This document shows, in pieces, positions 5,161 to 14,217 of a DNA stretch of 64,000 nt. This DNA comes from Microvirga lupini (GTDB taxonomy: Bacteria > Pseudomonadota > Alphaproteobacteria > Rhizobiales > Beijerinckiaceae). The position numbers and the translations under genes were made by a program. Numbering within the stretch: the stretch's first letter is position 1; the number at the start of each line of letters is the position of its first letter. The notes beneath the pieces were generated by a model. That model searched no databases. It had not been told where the DNA came from and saw only the letters and a program-made list of their open reading frames with translations. The stretch is taken from positions 62,001 through 126,000 of the forward strand of contig NZ_JACHWB010000007.1 of assembly GCF_014191055.1 (NCBI RefSeq), in the 5' to 3' direction.

Positions 5161-8058
5161 TTACAGCGACCGCTTCACCTCTTCCACGCGGTAGCACTCG
5201 ATGAGGTCGCCGACGCGCATGTCCTGGTAGTTCTCGAAGGACATACCGCATTCCTGACCCGAGGTGACCTCGCGGGCATCGTCCTTGAAGCGCTTGAGCT
5301 GCGAGAGCTTGCCCTCGTGGATCACAACGTTGTCGCGGATCAGGCGGACATGGGCGCCGCGCTGGACCACGCCGTCGAGGACGCGGCAGCCGGCGATCTT
5401 GCCGACCTTCGACACGTTGAACACCTCGAGGATCTGCGCCTCGCCGAGCCGCTCCTCGCGGAGCGTCGGAGCCAGCAGTCCGGACATCGCCGCCTTCACG
5501 TCATCCACGAGGTCGTAGATGATGTTGTAGTAGCGGATCTCGATGCCGGCACGCTCGGCCGCCTCGCGCGCTTCCTTGTGGGCACGCACATTGAAGGCCA
5601 GGATGATGGCGCCCGAGGCTTCCGCCAGGGTGACGTCCGATTCCGAGATGCCGCCGACGCCGGCCTGGACGATACGGGCGGCCACTTCCTCGTTGCCGAC
5701 CTTCTCAAGAGCACCGACGATCGCTTCCGCCGAGCCCTGCACGTCCGCGCGAACCACGAGCGGGAATTCCTTGCGGCCCGCTCCGGCCTTGAGGTCGTGC
5801 ATCATGTCGGCGAGCGTGCGCCCGGCCGAACCCATGCGGGCCGCCTGACGCTCGCGCTTCTGGCGGGTGCGGTATTCGGTGACCTCGCGGGCGCGGGCCT
5901 CCGACTCGACCACCGCCACGCGGTCGCCGGCCTCGGGCGTGCCGTTGAAGCCCAGAACCTCGACCGGGACGGAGGGACCTGCCTCCTTCACGTTGGCACC
6001 GAGATCGTTGATCAGGGCACGCACGCGACCCCACTCGGCGCCGGCCACGACGATGTCGCCGGTGCGCAGCGTTCCGCGCTGCACGAGCACGGTGGCCACG
6101 GGCCCCCGTCCGCGATCGAGCTTGGCCTCGATGACGGTTCCTTCCGCCGAGCGCTCGGCATTGGCCTTGAGCTCGAGAATTTCCGCCTGCAGCTGGAGAC
6201 CTTCGAGAAGGGTCTCGAGACCGTCGCCTGTCTTGGCCGAGACCTCGAACTCGAGGGTCTCGCCGCCCATGGACTCGACCACGATGGAGTGCTGCAGCAG
6301 CTCGGTTCGCACCCGCTGCGGGTTCGCGTCGGGCTTGTCGATCTTGTTGATCGCCACGATCAGGGGCACGCCGGCCGCCTGCGCGTGATTGATCGCCTCG
6401 ACGGTCTGCGGCATGACGCCGTCATCGGCCGCCACCACCAGCACCACGATGTCCGTCACCTTGGCGCCGCGGGCGCGCATGGCCGTGAAGGCCGCGTGAC
6501 CCGGCGTGTCGATGAAGGTGATCTTGCCGCCGAGCGGCGAGGTCACCTGATAGGCGCCGATATGCTGCGTGATGCCGCCGGCTTCGCCGGACACCACGTT
6601 GGTCTTGCGGATCGCGTCGAGCAGCGAGGTCTTGCCGTGGTCGACGTGGCCCATGATGGTCACGACCGGCGGACGGGTGACGAGGTTCTCGTCCACGTCC
6701 GGGGTGTCGAACAGGCCTTCCTCGACGTCCGACTCCGCAACGCGCTTCACCGTGTGGCCGAGTTCTTCCGCCACGAGCTGCGCGGTATCGGCATCGATCA
6801 CGTCGGTGATCTTGTGCATCTGTCCCTGCTTCATCAGGAACTTGATCACGTCCACGGCGCGCTCCGACATGCGGTTGGCGAGCTCCTGGATGGTGATCGT
6901 CTCCGGAATCGTCACCTCGCGGGCGATCTTTTCCTTCTGTTCCACCTGGCGGTGGCCCATAAGCCGCTGATTGCGGCGCCGGAAGGCGGCGAGCGAGCGG
7001 GTGCGCTCCTCTTCGCCCGAGGTCGCGTTGGCGAGCGTCAGACGTCCACGGCGCTTCTCCTCGCCGGGAGCAGCCTTGGGAGTCTTCGGCAGGGCTGCGG
7101 GCTTCGCGGCAACGCCGGGACGACGGATGGTGCGTGCACCCTCCTCGTCATCCACCAGGGCAGCGCGGGCGGCCATGGGAGGAGCCGTGCGGGCATGGGG
7201 CTTCGCCGTTTCCGGATCGGGTACGACCGGGGCGGCAGGGCGGGCCATATGGTTGAGGCTCGGCGGACGGCCACCCGTGGTGCCGACGCCGGGACGGCTG
7301 AAACCACCCGGACGGGGACCATCAGAACGCGGGCCGCTGGGGCGCGGACCGTCGGAACGAGCGCCGGCGGGACGCGGCCCATCCGTGCGGGGACGATCCG
7401 GGCGCGGACCCTCGAAGCGGCCACCTTCCTGGCGCGGAGCACCGGTGCGGGCTGCGGGAGCGGCGCCCTGAGCGGAACGCGGAGCCTCCTCGCCGAGACG
7501 GCGGCGGGCTTCGTCCTCGGCGCGGCGCTTGCGCTCCTCGTCCTGACGGCGGCGCTCGTCCTCCTCGCGCTTGCGGGCTTCGGCGGCTTCGCGCTCCTGG
7601 GCCTCGGCGGCCTCGCGCTCGGCGCGGCGGGCTGCCTCTTCGGCCTGTCTCTTGCGGTCTTCCTCGTCGCGGCGGCGCGCGTCGACGAGCGCGTTCATGC
7701 GCGCATCGCGCTCCTGCTCGGAGAGCGTCTGCAGCACCATGCCGCCAGACCGGGGGGTGTTCGGAGCGGACCGCTGCGGGCGGCCACCCTGGGCGGGCGC
7801 AGCCGGCTTCGGCGTTGGAGCCGCAGGCTTGGGCGCAGCCGCGGGGGCCGCTGCCTGTTGTGGCGCGGGCCTGCTGTCTTCCTTGGCCCCGGCAGGGCCA
7901 ACGGCAGGGCGACGCTTGACCGTCTCCACCACGACCGACTTGGAACGGCCATGGGAGAAGCTTTGGCGCACCGTGCCTTGCTCGACGGGTCGCTTCAGAG
8001 ACAGCGTCTTGGACGACACGTGAAGAGTCTTGTCGCCCTGGTTTTTCGTATCAGTCAT
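5161..8058 (-). CDS. infB: Translation initiation factor IF-2
   Basis: GTPase that brings fMet-tRNA to the 30S P site and promotes subunit joining. At 965 residues it is the long alphaproteobacterial form. Order: a basic start ([15 protein letters not shown]), a Pro/Ala-rich stretch, a long charged coiled-coil segment rich in Glu and Arg (about 120-200), a repetitive DGPRP segment (about 215-260), then the G domain with GHVDHGKTS near residue 470, [15 protein letters not shown] and [10 protein letters not shown], and the C-terminal beta-barrel and tRNA-binding domains. The ATG overlaps the upstream gene's stop in ATGA. Confidence 0.97.
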
Positions 8059-8726
8059 TCCGCCTCAGTTCCTGCGGGTTTCATAATCGTGGGTTCGCCG
8101 GTCTCGTCGCCGAGGCCAGTTTGATCGGCGCCGATGCCGCGAAAGACGCGGTAACGTTGCCAGCGGTTCAGAAAGCCGTCGCTCCCAGCGCCCGCGACGA
8201 GGGCAGCATGTATCACATGTGACCGGCCTAATGCCAAATCCAATTCGTCATTCGACAATTCTTGGATGACCGGAAAGCTAGATATTGCCTCGCCGAGGCG
8301 TTTTCGCAACTGGTTCGCCAATTTTCTTCGCCCATCTTCGGCCGCCTCTGCGGCATGAATAAGGGCAACGATGGGCTTATCCGTGATCGCCGACTCGACT
8401 TTGTGGAAGCCGGTGATCACCGATCCGGCCTTGTTGGCGAGCGACAGGCCCTGGCGAAGGTCGTCCCGGAGAAGACGTTCGATATCCTGCGCCAGGGTCT
8501 CCGGCACCCTCGCGTCGGTCTTGAATGCGCGGGAGAAGAGGCGACGTTTGGCCGCCTCTTCCACCATGTCGTAGCGAGCCGTGACCCAGGCCCCCCGGCC
8601 CGGCAGCTTGTTCCTAAGATCGGGCACGACCTGCTGGTCGGGCCCGAGGACAAAGCGGATCAGTCCCGCGGGGCTGTTCGCCTCGCGGGTGACGATGCAG
8701 GTGCGCTCCGGTTCATGCCGCGGCAC
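8055..8726 (-). CDS. YlxR-type RNA-binding protein with L7Ae-like domain
   Basis: The conserved partner between nusA and infB. The N-terminal YlxR/DUF448 domain has the hallmark [10 protein letters not shown] and [11 protein letters not shown] segments; an L7Ae/L30e-like RNA-binding region follows ([30 protein letters not shown]). Its role is unsettled, with proposals ranging from ribosome assembly to RNase P and transcription regulation. I start at the GTG at 8726, preceded by GAGGT and lying after the nusA stop; a longer frame from 8813 would overlap nusA by 56 bases. At 223 residues it fits relatives in this order. Its stop overlaps the infB start. Confidence 0.9.
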
Positions 8727-8757
8727 GGGTGCTGACCTCGCTTTGCCATAACCGGAT

Positions 8758-10377
<1,620 letters not shown>

Positions 10378-10389
10378 CGAGGTCGCTCC

Positions 10390-11019
10390 TTAGTTTGGTT
10401 TCTTCTGATCGGACGGGTCCTGCGGCTCATCGGGCGCATCCACCACATCCGTGTCTTCATCAAGGTCGTCCGTGGTCGGCGCCGTTCCCCGGCGCAGCGA
10501 TTCACGGATCAGGTCATCGGTCAGAACGAGGTGAGCCTCGCCTAGATCCGTCAGGGGCAGGCGCGCGATGGGGTCGAGACCCTCCTTCACGTCCGGCAAC
10601 TCGACAACGAGCTTTCCGTTCTCGACGCCCCGGAGAAAACCCCGGAACCGCTTGCGGCCTTCGAGCGGCACGGCCATCTCGATCTTGGCATCGTAGCCGG
10701 TCCAGCGCTTGAAATCGCTCTCACGCACGAGCGGCCGGTCGATCCCCGGCGAGGAGATCTCGAGGTGGTAGGCCGTGTCGATGGGATCCTCGAGGTCGAG
10801 CACCGGCGAAATCGCCCGGCTCACGGTCTCGCAATCGCTCACCGACATGGTGCCGTCCGGCCTCTCGGCCATGATCTGCACCGTGCATCCATTCGCGCCG
10901 GTGACCCGCACCCGCACGAGGTTGAAGCCCAGATCCTCGATCACAGGCTCGACGATGGTCGCCACTCGGGCTGCCACGCCGTTCTCGGTAATCAGCCGCT
11001 TGTCGCGTTCGTTTGTCAT
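10390..11019 (-). CDS. rimP: Ribosome maturation factor RimP
   Basis: Cytosolic factor for early 30S assembly. The frame is open further upstream, but the conserved part begins [31 protein letters not shown], so I use the ATG at 11019 (209 residues). RimP hallmarks include [26 protein letters not shown] and an SM-like C-terminal domain. It is first gene of the rimP-nusA-ylxR-infB-rbfA-truB unit. The longer frame would pass through the leader terminator hairpin and is not credible. Confidence 0.94.
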
Positions 11020-11048
11020 GGCTCTCCGCACGCTCCGGCATTCAGGCA

Positions 11049-11082
11049 ATAAAAAAGAGCGGACCCGGCGGGGCCCACTCTT
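11049..11082 (-). terminator. Leader terminator (attenuator) upstream of rimP
   Basis: On the minus strand AAGAGTGGGCCC and GGGTCCGCTCTT form a 12-bp stem with two G-U pairs and a CGCC tetraloop, followed by TTTTTTAT. It lies between the predicted start of transcription and the rimP ATG, so it would stop transcription before the first gene. A smaller hairpin (GCAGC-GTCAA-GCTGC, 11088-11102) precedes it. No gene upstream on this strand needs it. Confidence 0.8.
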
Positions 11083-11121
11083 GACCAGCAGCTTGACGCT
11101 GCAACCAGAGCTGACGTCGAA

Positions 11122-11150
11122 CTTATAGCGATTCAAGTCAAAAAAAGCAA
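11122..11150 (-). promoter_or_regulatory. Predicted sigma70 promoter of rimP-nusA-infB operon
   Basis: The minus strand reads TTGCTT, exactly 17 bases, TATAAG: four of six and five of six consensus matches. Transcription would begin near 11115, giving a leader of about 95 bases that carries the attenuator. Confidence 0.7.
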
Positions 11151-11270
11151 GAGTCCTGCAAAAGGACCGTCGGGCACCGCCCTCGGTCACGACAAGGGAC
11201 CTCCGGAAAGGTCGTCAGTCGCCGCCACGCTTCGCTTATGATAAGGGATCGGTGTTCTTGGAGCCGTTCC

Positions 11271-12269
11271 GTGAAGCTGTCCCGCCTCATCATTGTCCTG
11301 GCGCTGCTGCTCGCGGCGGGAGCGGCCATTTGGCGCTTCAGCCGGCCGCAGGAGGTGGCTCTCGTGTCGCCTCGGCGCGGCGAGGCCGCCGAGATCGTCT
11401 ATGCCACGGGCATCGTCGAGCCCCGCACCTGGGCCAAGGTGACGCCCCTGCTGCGGGAGCGGATCATCGAGCTGTGCAATTGCGAGGGCGAGGCAGTGGA
11501 GAAGGGGGCCGTGCTGGCCCGCCTCGACAGCCGGCAGCCGGAGGCGACCCTGGCCGAATTGCGTGCGCGCCAGAAGCTGAACGCGTCCGATTACGAGCGG
11601 ATCGCCGCCCTCGTGGAACGGCGGGTGGCGAGCGAGCAGGCTCTGGACCGGGCCCGCAGCGAGCTCGGCCAGATCCAGGCCCTCATCGCCGGCCAGGAGA
11701 CGCGGCTCGAATCCTATGTCCTGCGAGCGCCGGTGAGCGGCGTCGTGCTGCGCCAGGACGGGGAGGTCGGGGAGGTGGCCGAGCCCGGAACGGTTCTGTT
11801 CTGGGTGGGCGAGCCCAAGCCCCTGCAGATCGAGGCCGAGGTGAACGAGGAGGACATCCCCCGCGTCACGGTCGGGCAGCGCGCCGTCCTCAAGGCCGAT
11901 GCCTTTCCGGATCAGGCGCTGGAGGCGAAGGTCGACTCGATCACCCCGAAGGGCGATCCGGTGGCCAAGACCTACCGGATCCACCTGGCCCTGCCGGATA
12001 ACACGCCGCTGCGGATCGGCATGACCGTAGAGGTGAATGTGATCGCCCGTGTCGCGTCCGAGGCTCTCCTCGTGCCCACCAATGCCCTTCGCGGCGCCAG
12101 CCTCTTCGTGGCGGAGGACGGCGTGGCGAGGCGCCGTGACGTGAAGGTGGGGATCCGCGGCACGGGCAACACGCAGATCCTCGAAGGCCTGAACGAGTCC
12201 GGCCGGGTGATCACGCCCTTCCCGGACGATCTCGCGGACGGCACGAAGGTCTCGGAAAAGGGGAGGTAA
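11271..12269 (+). CDS. HlyD/MacA-type periplasmic adaptor of an ABC exporter
   Basis: Membrane-fusion protein anchored by one N-terminal segment (LIIVLALLLAAGAAIW) with the rest in the periplasm. A biotinyl-lipoyl half-motif, a short coiled-coil hairpin (LAELRARQKLNASDYERIAAL) and the second lipoyl half (RAPVSGVVLRQDGEVGEV) are followed by beta-barrel and membrane-proximal domains. I chose the GTG at 11271 because TTGGAG lies 7 bases upstream; an ATG at 11238 is in frame. Two bases separate its stop from the permease start, so the three genes form an operon. The substrate is unknown. Confidence 0.85.
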   Translation: MKLSRLIIVLALLLAAGAAIWRFSRPQEVALVSPRRGEAAEIVYATGIVEPRTWAKVTPLLRERIIELCNCEGEAVEKGAVLARLDSRQPEATLAELRARQKLNASDYERIAALVERRVASEQALDRARSELGQIQALIAGQETRLESYVLRAPVSGVVLRQDGEVGEVAEPGTVLFWVGEPKPLQIEAEVNEEDIPRVTVGQRAVLKADAFPDQALEAKVDSITPKGDPVAKTYRIHLALPDNTPLRIGMTVEVNVIARVASEALLVPTNALRGASLFVAEDGVARRRDVKVGIRGTGNTQILEGLNESGRVITPFPDDLADGTKVSEKGR

Positions 12270-12271
12270 GC

Positions 12272-13519
12272 GTGCGCCTCATCCTCGAACTCGCCCTGAC
12301 CCATATCGCCGGGCGCGGCCGCCAGACCATCGTGGCGATTCTCGGTGTGGCGCTCGGCGTGGGCTTTTCCATCGCCATGGCGGCCCTGATGCAGGGCACC
12401 GAGAAGGATTTCATCGCCCAGCTCGTCGACACCATGCCGCATGTGCAGATCTCGGATGAGCGCCGCACGGCGCGCCGGCAACCGGCGGAAGACCTCTTCG
12501 CCGCGGCCCAGTTCGAGGGTCTGCGGCCCAAGGAGGACCGGCGCGGCATCCTCAATCCGGCGGCCGCTTTCGCCTCACTGCGCTCCTGGGTGCCCGGCCG
12601 CATGGCCCAGAGCCTGCGCACGCAGGGCGTGGTCCGCTATGCGGGTCGCGATGTGGGGGTGTCCATCATCGGCATCGAACCGGAAACCGAGGCCCGGGTC
12701 TCGTCGGTGGCGGGCGATTTCGTCGAGGGCAGCTTCGATTCCCTGCGGGCGGGAGGCAACAACATCCTGATCGGTGACAGGCTCGCGCGCCGGATCGGCG
12801 CCTCGACGGGCACCACGATCCAGGTGGTCGCACCCACCGGGCAGTCGCGGGGCTTTCGCATCGTCGGGCAGTTCCACACCGGCAACGTCGCCCGCGACGA
12901 GGGCGAGGCCTATGTGCTCCTGAAAAGCGCCCAGATCCTCTCCGAGCGTCCCAACGCCATCAACGACATCCGCCTGCGCCTGGACGATCCGGAAGCCGCA
13001 CCCCGTGTCGCCCGCCAGGCGGAGGCCGAACTCGGCTACAAGGCTGTGCCCTGGCAGGAGGCGAACGAATCGCTTCTGGAGGCGCTCGTGGTCCGCAACG
13101 TGGTCATGTACACGGTGGTGGGCGCGATCCTGCTGGTGGCAGGCTTCGGCATCTTCAACATCATCTCTACCATTACTCACGAGAAGGCGCGCGACATCGC
13201 CATCCTGAAGTCGCTCGGCTTCACCCAAGGCAACATGCGCCGACTGTTCCTCCTCGAAGGATTGGCCTTGGGGCTGGCCGGCTCGCTGGTGGGCTGGCTT
13301 ATCGGCTTTGTGCTGTGCTTTGTCCTGTCCCAGGTGGAGTTCAAGGTCTCGGGCGCCGCCATCGGGCGCGAGATGACCAACCTGCCGCTGTTCTGGAGCC
13401 CCTGGCACTACGCCATCGCGTCGGCCTTCGCGCTGATCTCGTCGGGGGTCGCCGGCTATCTTCCGGCCCGGCAGGCAGCGCGGCTCAACCCGGTCGACAT
13501 CATCCGGGGGGCCACATGA
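12272..13519 (+). CDS. FtsX/MacB-type ABC exporter permease
   Basis: A 415-residue inner-membrane protein of the MacB/LolC/FtsX superfamily. One membrane helix (IVAILGVALGVGFSIAMAAL) precedes a large periplasmic domain (about residues 45-265), then three helices (VVMYTVVGAILLVAGFGIF, GLALGLAGSLVGWLIGFVLC, YAIASAFALISSGVAGYLP). Such proteins are mechanotransmission permeases moving lipids, lipoproteins or drugs from the periplasmic side. Start GTG with GGGAGG upstream. Its stop overlaps the ATPase start as ATGA. With the adaptor it recalls MacAB or DevBCA systems, not LolCDE, which lacks an adaptor. Confidence 0.88.
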   Translation: MRLILELALTHIAGRGRQTIVAILGVALGVGFSIAMAALMQGTEKDFIAQLVDTMPHVQISDERRTARRQPAEDLFAAAQFEGLRPKEDRRGILNPAAAFASLRSWVPGRMAQSLRTQGVVRYAGRDVGVSIIGIEPETEARVSSVAGDFVEGSFDSLRAGGNNILIGDRLARRIGASTGTTIQVVAPTGQSRGFRIVGQFHTGNVARDEGEAYVLLKSAQILSERPNAINDIRLRLDDPEAAPRVARQAEAELGYKAVPWQEANESLLEALVVRNVVMYTVVGAILLVAGFGIFNIISTITHEKARDIAILKSLGFTQGNMRRLFLLEGLALGLAGSLVGWLIGFVLCFVLSQVEFKVSGAAIGREMTNLPLFWSPWHYAIASAFALISSGVAGYLPARQAARLNPVDIIRGAT

Positions 13520-14217
13520 GCCTTCTCATCGAAGCCGATCATCTCACCCGCGTCCTGCCCGCCACCGTGCCGGTGACCCTCGTGCGGGACGTGTCGCTGA
13601 GTGTGGACGAGCACGAGTTCATCGCCATTACCGGCCCGTCCGGCTCGGGCAAGTCGTCGCTGCTCTACCTGCTCGGGCTCCTCGACCGTCCGACGAGCGG
13701 GCATTTGAGGATCGCCGGGCAGGATACGTCGTCGCTGAATGACGATGCTCTCGCCCACCTGCGGCTCGAGATGCTGGGCTTCGTGTTCCAGTTTCACTTT
13801 CTCCTGCCGGAATTCTCAGTGCTGGAGAACGTGATGCTGCCCATGCGCAAGGCGGGACGCCTGTCCTCCACGGCCATGCGCGAGCGCGCCGCGAGCCTGC
13901 TGGAGGAGCTCGGCCTTGCGGGGCATCTCGACAAGCGCCCGGACCAGCTCTCCGGCGGCCAGCGCCAGCGCGTGGCCGTCGCCCGTGCGCTCGCCAACGA
14001 TCCCCATGTGGTGCTGGCCGACGAGCCGACGGGCAGCCTCGACAGCAAGAGTTCCGAGCAGGTGTTCCAGATCCTGCGCGACCTCGTGAAGAAGCGCGGC
14101 AAGACGGTGATTGCCGTCACGCACGACATGGACATCGCGGCGCGCGTGGACCGGCGCATCCATCTCGTCGATGGTCGGGTGGTGAGCGACGAGCGCGTGG
14201 CTCAGGCGGCTGTCTGA
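13516..14217 (+). CDS. MacB/LolD-type ABC ATPase
   Basis: Cytosolic ATPase of the exporter, 233 residues. It has Walker A GPSGSGKSS, the signature LSGGQRQRVAVARAL, Walker B VVLADEPTG and a switch His in VIAVTHDMD, all intact. FQFHFLLPEFSVLENV is typical of the LolD/MacB ATPase group. It starts at the ATG overlapping the permease stop. It is the last gene of the three-gene operon and ends three bases before the convergent trmB. Confidence 0.92.
   Translation: MSLLIEADHLTRVLPATVPVTLVRDVSLSVDEHEFIAITGPSGSGKSSLLYLLGLLDRPTSGHLRIAGQDTSSLNDDALAHLRLEMLGFVFQFHFLLPEFSVLENVMLPMRKAGRLSSTAMRERAASLLEELGLAGHLDKRPDQLSGGQRQRVAVARALANDPHVVLADEPTGSLDSKSSEQVFQILRDLVKKRGKTVIAVTHDMDIAARVDRRIHLVDGRVVSDERVAQAAV

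Follow-up and report, generated by a model that had tools for sequence, protein, structure and literature searches.

The closest described counterpart of the leader analyzed here is the rimP-leader of Naville and Gautheret (2010, PMC2965389), who placed rimP first among the genes regulated by attenuation. In the parts of that study consulted here, most species, among them Firmicutes, have a leader with an intrinsic terminator whose GGGc...gCCC stem is conserved in sequence and followed by a U-tract, and NusA is proposed as the sensor. Those same parts report no larger conserved element for the general form and give an antiterminator, with a second tandem terminator, for several gammaproteobacteria only. 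The original prediction for our locus had referred to a rimP leader with a terminator in gammaproteobacteria; such a leader is indeed described, and by the 2010 account the range given was too narrow. According to the account in PMC12288461 of work by Mondal (2016), NusA stimulates a terminator in the leader of the Bacillus subtilis nusA operon and so controls its own amount. For Escherichia coli, the sections used from PMC6511841 place two terminators, t1 and t2, upstream of rimP in the metY-rimP-nusA-infB leader, and a table in PMC5955585 lists RF01770 (rimP) as a gammaproteobacterial rimP leader. Within a partial literature, the titles and abstract openings name no rimP or nusA leader from alphaproteobacteria; some may be included in the supplementary lists of the 2010 study.

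The leader studied here lies in a 64,000-nucleotide stretch of Microvirga lupini DNA (the window), and its features, like the genes it precedes, are read on the minus strand. The operon opens with rimP (10390 to 11019, ATG at 11019; 209 amino acids; NF000932, 252 bits, cut-off 185) and continues with nusA (8758 to 10377; 539 amino acids; TIGR01953 NusA, 437 bits, cut-off 253), a gene for a YlxR/RnpM-like RNA-binding protein (8055 to 8813; NF006622, 251 bits, cut-off 184), and infB (5161 to 8058; 965 amino acids; TIGR00487 IF-2, 796 bits, cut-off 424). The RnpM model gave the product of 8055 to 8813 a score of 53 bits, under its cut-off of 80. The promoter (11122 to 11151) combines a -35 element CTTGCT (11151 to 11146) with a -10 element TATAAG (11127 to 11122), and the spacer between TTGCTT (11150 to 11145) and TATAAG is 17 nucleotides. 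The hexamers and spacer are thus present as originally described, and the label "well-formed" was generous, with TTGCTT agreeing with the E. coli -35 element at three of six positions and a sigma-70 promoter scan of 9000 to 14000 returning no promoters. The alphaproteobacterial promoter consensus is CTTGAC/CTATAT. Against this consensus, the hexamers here score 9 of 12; 71% of 129 leaders carry a match of at least 9 of 12 ahead of the hairpin, versus 3.4% of letter shuffles. Spacing from the -10 element, the sole guide used, would place the transcription start at 11115 (11114 to 11116), and the 5' end of the leader reads GUCAGCUCUGGUUGCAGCGUCAAGCUGCUGGUCAAGAGUGGGCCCCGCCGGGUCCGCUCUUUUUUA.

The promoter is followed by a GC-rich terminator hairpin of 12 bp (11055 to 11082; core GAGUGGG...CCGCUC), in which 11082 to 11071 pair with 11066 to 11055 around a CGCC loop, and by a tract of six U's (11051 to 11056) directly at the 3' end of the stem. 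The stem spans approximately +34 to +61 from the inferred start, which agrees with the claim of a terminator 35 to 65 bases after the promoter. The remainder of the leader (11020 to 11050) holds a likely Shine-Dalgarno GGAG ahead of rimP, read by eye. This order of promoter, hairpin with U-tract, and rimP is as had been claimed and is seen across the genus, family, and order. A terminator scan of 9000 to 14000 found six sites versus 2.3 expected, the site in the rimP leader having 12 pairs and the remaining sites 5 to 9. The 66-nucleotide leader folds at -29.7 kcal/mol versus a shuffled mean of -20.8 (z of -3.25; 1 of 200 shuffles equally good), and the core pattern has one match in the window versus none in 100 shuffles. 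Judged from these sequence features and from the comparison with relatives, transcription attenuation ahead of rimP-nusA-infB is highly probable.

Conservation of the hairpin in relatives, on which the original prediction had staked itself, is borne out. It stands upstream of rimP in 80 of 80 named relatives (the best 80 of 238 found), of which 75 have six or seven U's in the following eight positions, three have four, and two have none or one. Across the genus and family, the core pattern is matched in 92 of 98 loci and, in a wider window, also in L051; the 80 named loci and the genus and family loci are not independent because the two sets overlap. RimP is present in 113 genomes of the genus and family, of which 98 supplied these loci, the remaining 15 being family genomes; variants of the hairpin were recognized by eye in L048, L058, L074, and L078, and no hairpin was found in one of the 98 (L091). 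A model of the leader, R1, was built from the 51 leaders of alignment A1, which are 51 of 87 distinct core-matching leaders after near-identical rows were dropped. Four of the ten lower pairs of the terminator core are invariant in these 51 rows, a conservation that is partly selection because the rows were picked by the core pattern.

At the level of the order, R1 matches 86 of 121 genomes at an E value of 0.01 or better and finds no match in 35. Of the 86, 80 were checked, and all 80 have RimP beside an R1 match: in 70, coordinates place RimP 14 to 364 nucleotides downstream of the match (median 89), and in the other ten, tblastn of the loci locates it there. In three genomes (G121, G190, and G224) the rimP site is the second-best match. 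In the class, R1 matches 14 of 115 genomes, M. lupini included, with RimP beside the match in 7 of the other 13. The hairpin itself reaches wider in the class than R1 does: the core with its U's is found in 36 of 48 rimP upstream regions versus 2.5% of shuffled ones. The 48 regions were our own choice out of 99 RimP-bearing class genomes and include one from the same family; two loci (L208 and L239) had been dropped for want of a RimP match. A U-tract directly follows the hairpin in 90 of 98 family-level, 35 of 45 order-level, and 36 of 48 class-level loci, where 19 of the 45 order-level loci came from stretches chosen by an R1 match. The exact core pattern occurs once each in 14 of 21 genomes searched, every time upstream of rimP, and is absent from the other 7. 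Little could be learned from a plain alignment of six class-level regions, in which one row came from a wrongly chosen stretch.

Ahead of the terminator lies a second hairpin, P1, with the inner hairpin GCAGC-gucaa-GCUGC (11088 to 11102). Each of its seven pairs is changed on both sides in some rows, in the 51 leaders as well as in 49 further order-level leaders, and its cells are paired in 77% and 71% of cases, respectively. RNAalifold, given the plain alignment, places P1 with four pairs. The order-level set A3 comprises 57 of 73 loci, the 16 omitted including several in which no hairpin was seen near RimP. The original prediction, which proposed aligning the leader across the order in search of covarying pairs, made no reference to P1 or to a competing stem. 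The count of double-change cells exceeds that of shuffles: 78 versus 34 for the whole structure with the stem written out (14 to 38 when slid), and 55 versus 33 for leaders outside the model, which had been aligned by fitting to it. The number of pairs changed on both sides is not clearly above that of shuffles, at 10 versus 8.8 in the 51 leaders (115 of 500 shuffles) and 9 versus 7.6 in the non-model leaders (55 of 500), and p values of this kind are too small since the sequences are kin. The 37 nucleotides ahead of the hairpin fold more stably than their own shuffles, with a mean z of -0.76 in the family, -0.74 in the order, and -1.00 in the class, and the segment farther upstream shows no excess (0.09, -0.04, and -0.07).

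Folding of the growing M. lupini transcript suggests how P1 and the terminator might be coupled. In the predicted folds, the terminator and the outer stem of P1 share a strand, AGAGU (11077 to 11081). In the outer stem it pairs with an upstream GCUCU (11107 to 11111), the 5' side of this antiterminator stem, and in the terminator with a downstream GCUCU (11060 to 11056) in the 3' arm. The upstream copy is the predicted partner at all seven lengths tried, from 39 to 57 nucleotides, and the terminator is favored from 60 nucleotides. The read-through fold, which includes an upper hairpin, is computed at -24.8 kcal/mol and the terminated fold at -29.7, a gap of 4.9 kcal/mol. As AGAGU pairs with either GCUCU copy, the two computed folds are predicted to be mutually exclusive.

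It can be hypothesized that RNA polymerase initiates near 11115 and that P1 folds first, its outer stem holding AGAGU on the upstream GCUCU, while a short upper hairpin, GGGCCC/GGGUCC, would stack on the outer stem to give the read-through state. Once the downstream GCUCU emerges, it could take the place of the upstream copy and so close the full 12-bp stem beside the U-tract, and transcription would stop before rimP. The choice between read-through and termination would be set by pausing at the U-tract, and NusA, by prolonging pauses and aiding hairpin formation, would raise termination. Under this proposal, high NusA would lead to less rimP-nusA-infB transcription through more termination in the leader. 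The promoter-like hexamers, P1, the hairpin, the U-tract, and the order and conservation of these parts come from sequence and comparison, and the two exclusive folds from computation; termination in cells, the role of NusA as effector, and the direction of control are what we infer.

Comparative support for the exchange of strands is uneven. The pair adjoining CUC/GAG is formed in 55 of 77 leaders versus 38.5 when permuted, and none of 5,000 permutations did as well, a value made too small by kinship among the leaders; two further inner pairs of the outer stem are not enriched in the same 77 (14 versus 16.8). These 77 are the distinct leaders left from 108 rows after removal of 20 without CTC or a recognized core and of 11 repeats. 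The arm is paired at 0.66 versus 0.54 with a shuffled 5' segment, and 52 of 65 leaders lie above their own control; individually strong pairing, beating 95% of a leader's own shuffles, is seen in just 13 of 65. A partner-swap test gave a weak difference (-5.88 versus -5.40 kcal/mol, p of 0.008), with 39% of swapped partners pairing equally well in the median case. Read by eye, the outer stem is UCC/GGA or CAUC/GAUG in several genera, where it barely overlaps the terminator core. Because support is uneven and the overlap small in several genera, we put forward mutual exclusion as a prediction for the M. lupini clade and do not claim it order-wide. A bolder version, an order-wide RNA switch in which AGAGU is exchanged between two GCUCU copies in the M. 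lupini clade, P1 serves as a sensor of an operon protein, and the hairpin is read by sequence even where it has ceased to terminate, could be entertained only tentatively, and we lean against it.

Taken as a whole, we read the region as a rimP-leader in alphaproteobacterial form, a cis-acting attenuator in which NusA would raise termination, and assign this explanation a probability of roughly 0.6. NusA is a natural candidate for the sensed factor because it is encoded in the operon, has the B. subtilis precedent, and was proposed in 2010; by analogy with these cases, the chances that it is the factor sensed appear to us evenly balanced. The use of such an attenuator would probably be to hold NusA at a constant level.

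It is also conceivable, and in our view unlikely, that the attenuator senses something other than NusA, be it how fast transcription and translation run, a cold-shock protein, RimP, or IF2, acting via P1 or the hairpin. A structure such as P1 kept upstream of the terminator would suit a signal of this kind, as would a hairpin sequence kept without its U-tract in some lineages, as if it were read. Cold-shock-protein antitermination has been proposed for the E. coli operon; PMC6511841, in the sections used, cites and disputes this proposal, its authors finding Northern blots at odds with it. A rimP 5'UTR-ORF fusion was also reduced in an E. coli rho mutant, and the excerpted discussion names indirect effects among the possible causes (PMC7815308). 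Set against these points, no candidate site of binding emerged, and the precedent that has been tested experimentally, in B. subtilis, is NusA, as PMC12288461 relates in the portion seen.

The lineages without a U-tract also bear on a reading in which termination is secondary and the hairpin acts mainly as a pause or after transcription, in mRNA protection or maturation, or through the leader RNA itself. The hairpin is kept and the U-tract absent in L034, L038, and L058 and in L112, L120, L124, and L127, four genomes of one family; at Salinarimonas-type loci, the U-tract is interrupted. A broad hairpin script flags L034, L038, L058, L112, and L127 as lacking the U's; it takes chance hairpins at some loci (L078, L120, and L200, for example), so its class count was left unused. 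In L034, we observed by eye a second long inverted repeat just 3' of the hairpin, GGACC...GGTCC with an inner GCGCAT/ATGCGC. The lineages without U's are not accounted for by a plain terminator: either the hairpin is in decay there or something reads the stem. Conservation of the stem sequence, in A1 rows that were selected by the core pattern, would fit the latter. RNase III cuts the E. coli metY-nusA-infB transcript, as cited in the part of PMC5371410 consulted, which would favor a role after transcription. At most loci examined, a U-tract directly follows the hairpin, as it does in an intrinsic terminator, and we consider a mainly post-transcriptional or pausing role distinctly improbable.

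The genes upstream bear on whether the hairpin belongs to rimP. Of the 80 named loci, 16 have a divergent exporter gene ahead of rimP, as in the window, and 18 have a same-direction trmB that ends within approximately 510 nucleotides of rimP; upstream genes were identified in these 34, and the other 46 are without an assignment. In the window, the exporter cluster comprises three genes on the plus strand (11238 to 14217), between trmB and rimP and divergent from the latter, that encode an RND/HlyD-type adaptor, a LolC/E-like permease, and a LolD/MacB-like ATPase. The statement that there is no upstream gene to terminate thus applies here, where the neighbor is divergent, and does not extend to relatives with a same-direction trmB. 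As far as these sequences can tell, the leader stays while the upstream gene varies between species, and it belongs to rimP. A terminator of the upstream gene is unlikely because that gene changes and the hairpin lies downstream of the promoter. The trmB arrangement could likewise favor an insulator that shields rimP from upstream transcription and exerts no control; such a device appears very improbable, as the hairpin lies downstream of the promoter-like hexamers of rimP and also occurs, as in the window, next to a divergent upstream gene, and a plain insulator would have no need of P1.

Scarcely credible is a 3' arm that acts as a boxA-like GCUCUUU, binding NusB-S10 and blocking the hairpin: the rrn leader of the M. 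lupini genome has TGCTCTTTGACA, which we take to be boxA-like, about 185 nucleotides before 16S at a contig end, and shares GCTCTTT with 11060 to 11054, but these are seven letters alone that any GCUC arm before U's would give, and the reading receives low weight as CCCACUUUU replaces these letters at a number of class-level loci and GCUCUUU is not kept across the class.

A wider regulon of R1-like elements was considered and rejected. The M. lupini genome has one strong R1 site; the next match (E value of 0.036) looks by eye like an ordinary terminator, and the third falls on the opposite strand of the rimP hairpin. A second R1 match away from rimP is present in 13 order-level genomes, and none of these 13 matches lies beside RimP or has the GAGTGGG core. 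By eye, they resemble ordinary GC-rich terminators with other cores; neighboring frames were listed for three of them.

The products of the operon under discussion are general factors that act in transcription and in the assembly of ribosomes. An attenuator found order-wide and visible class-wide would offer a short, testable RNA through which alphaproteobacteria may set their levels of NusA and IF2. With P1 and the lineages without U's, it could further be tested cleanly whether the hairpin does no more than terminate or is read as a signal as well.

Placed beside the described systems, the leader is most readily compared with the rimP-leader, using the motif as worded in the consulted parts of PMC2965389. 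It shares the hairpin and U-tract between the rimP promoter and rimP, two of the 80 named loci being without the U-tract; the GGGc...gCCC stem, which the group carries; and the confinement of the motif to rimP, as the 14 of 21 genomes with the exact pattern, all at rimP, illustrate. M. lupini itself differs by pairing GGGC with GUCC, one G-U off the motif; many relatives have ACCC or GCCC, and many class-level loci read GUGGGCC...GGCCC. A further difference is that a covarying P1 and a competing stem precede the terminator here. RF01770 occupies the same place ahead of rimP; a genome search and a local scan gave no RF01770 match at the locus up to an E value of 10, and its gathering cut-off was not reached. 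Rfam matches to Xoo2, the L20 leader, and mir-296 (E values of 0.14, 1.3, and 2) were far below their cut-offs and were rejected. The E. coli leader, as partially consulted, belongs to the same operon and likewise places terminators ahead of rimP, whereas metY and several promoters precede them there and a tRNA scan of the M. lupini window found no tRNA near rimP. Set side by side by the description available, the B. subtilis leader and ours both have a terminator before nusA; stimulation by NusA belongs to B. subtilis, and a role for NusA here would follow by analogy. The kind of element is therefore known already, as a rimP-leader, and what is new here, on the evidence of aligned leaders and predicted folds, is the covarying hairpin P1 ahead of the terminator across the order, the putative strand exchange in the M. 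lupini clade, and the lineages that keep the hairpin without its U's.
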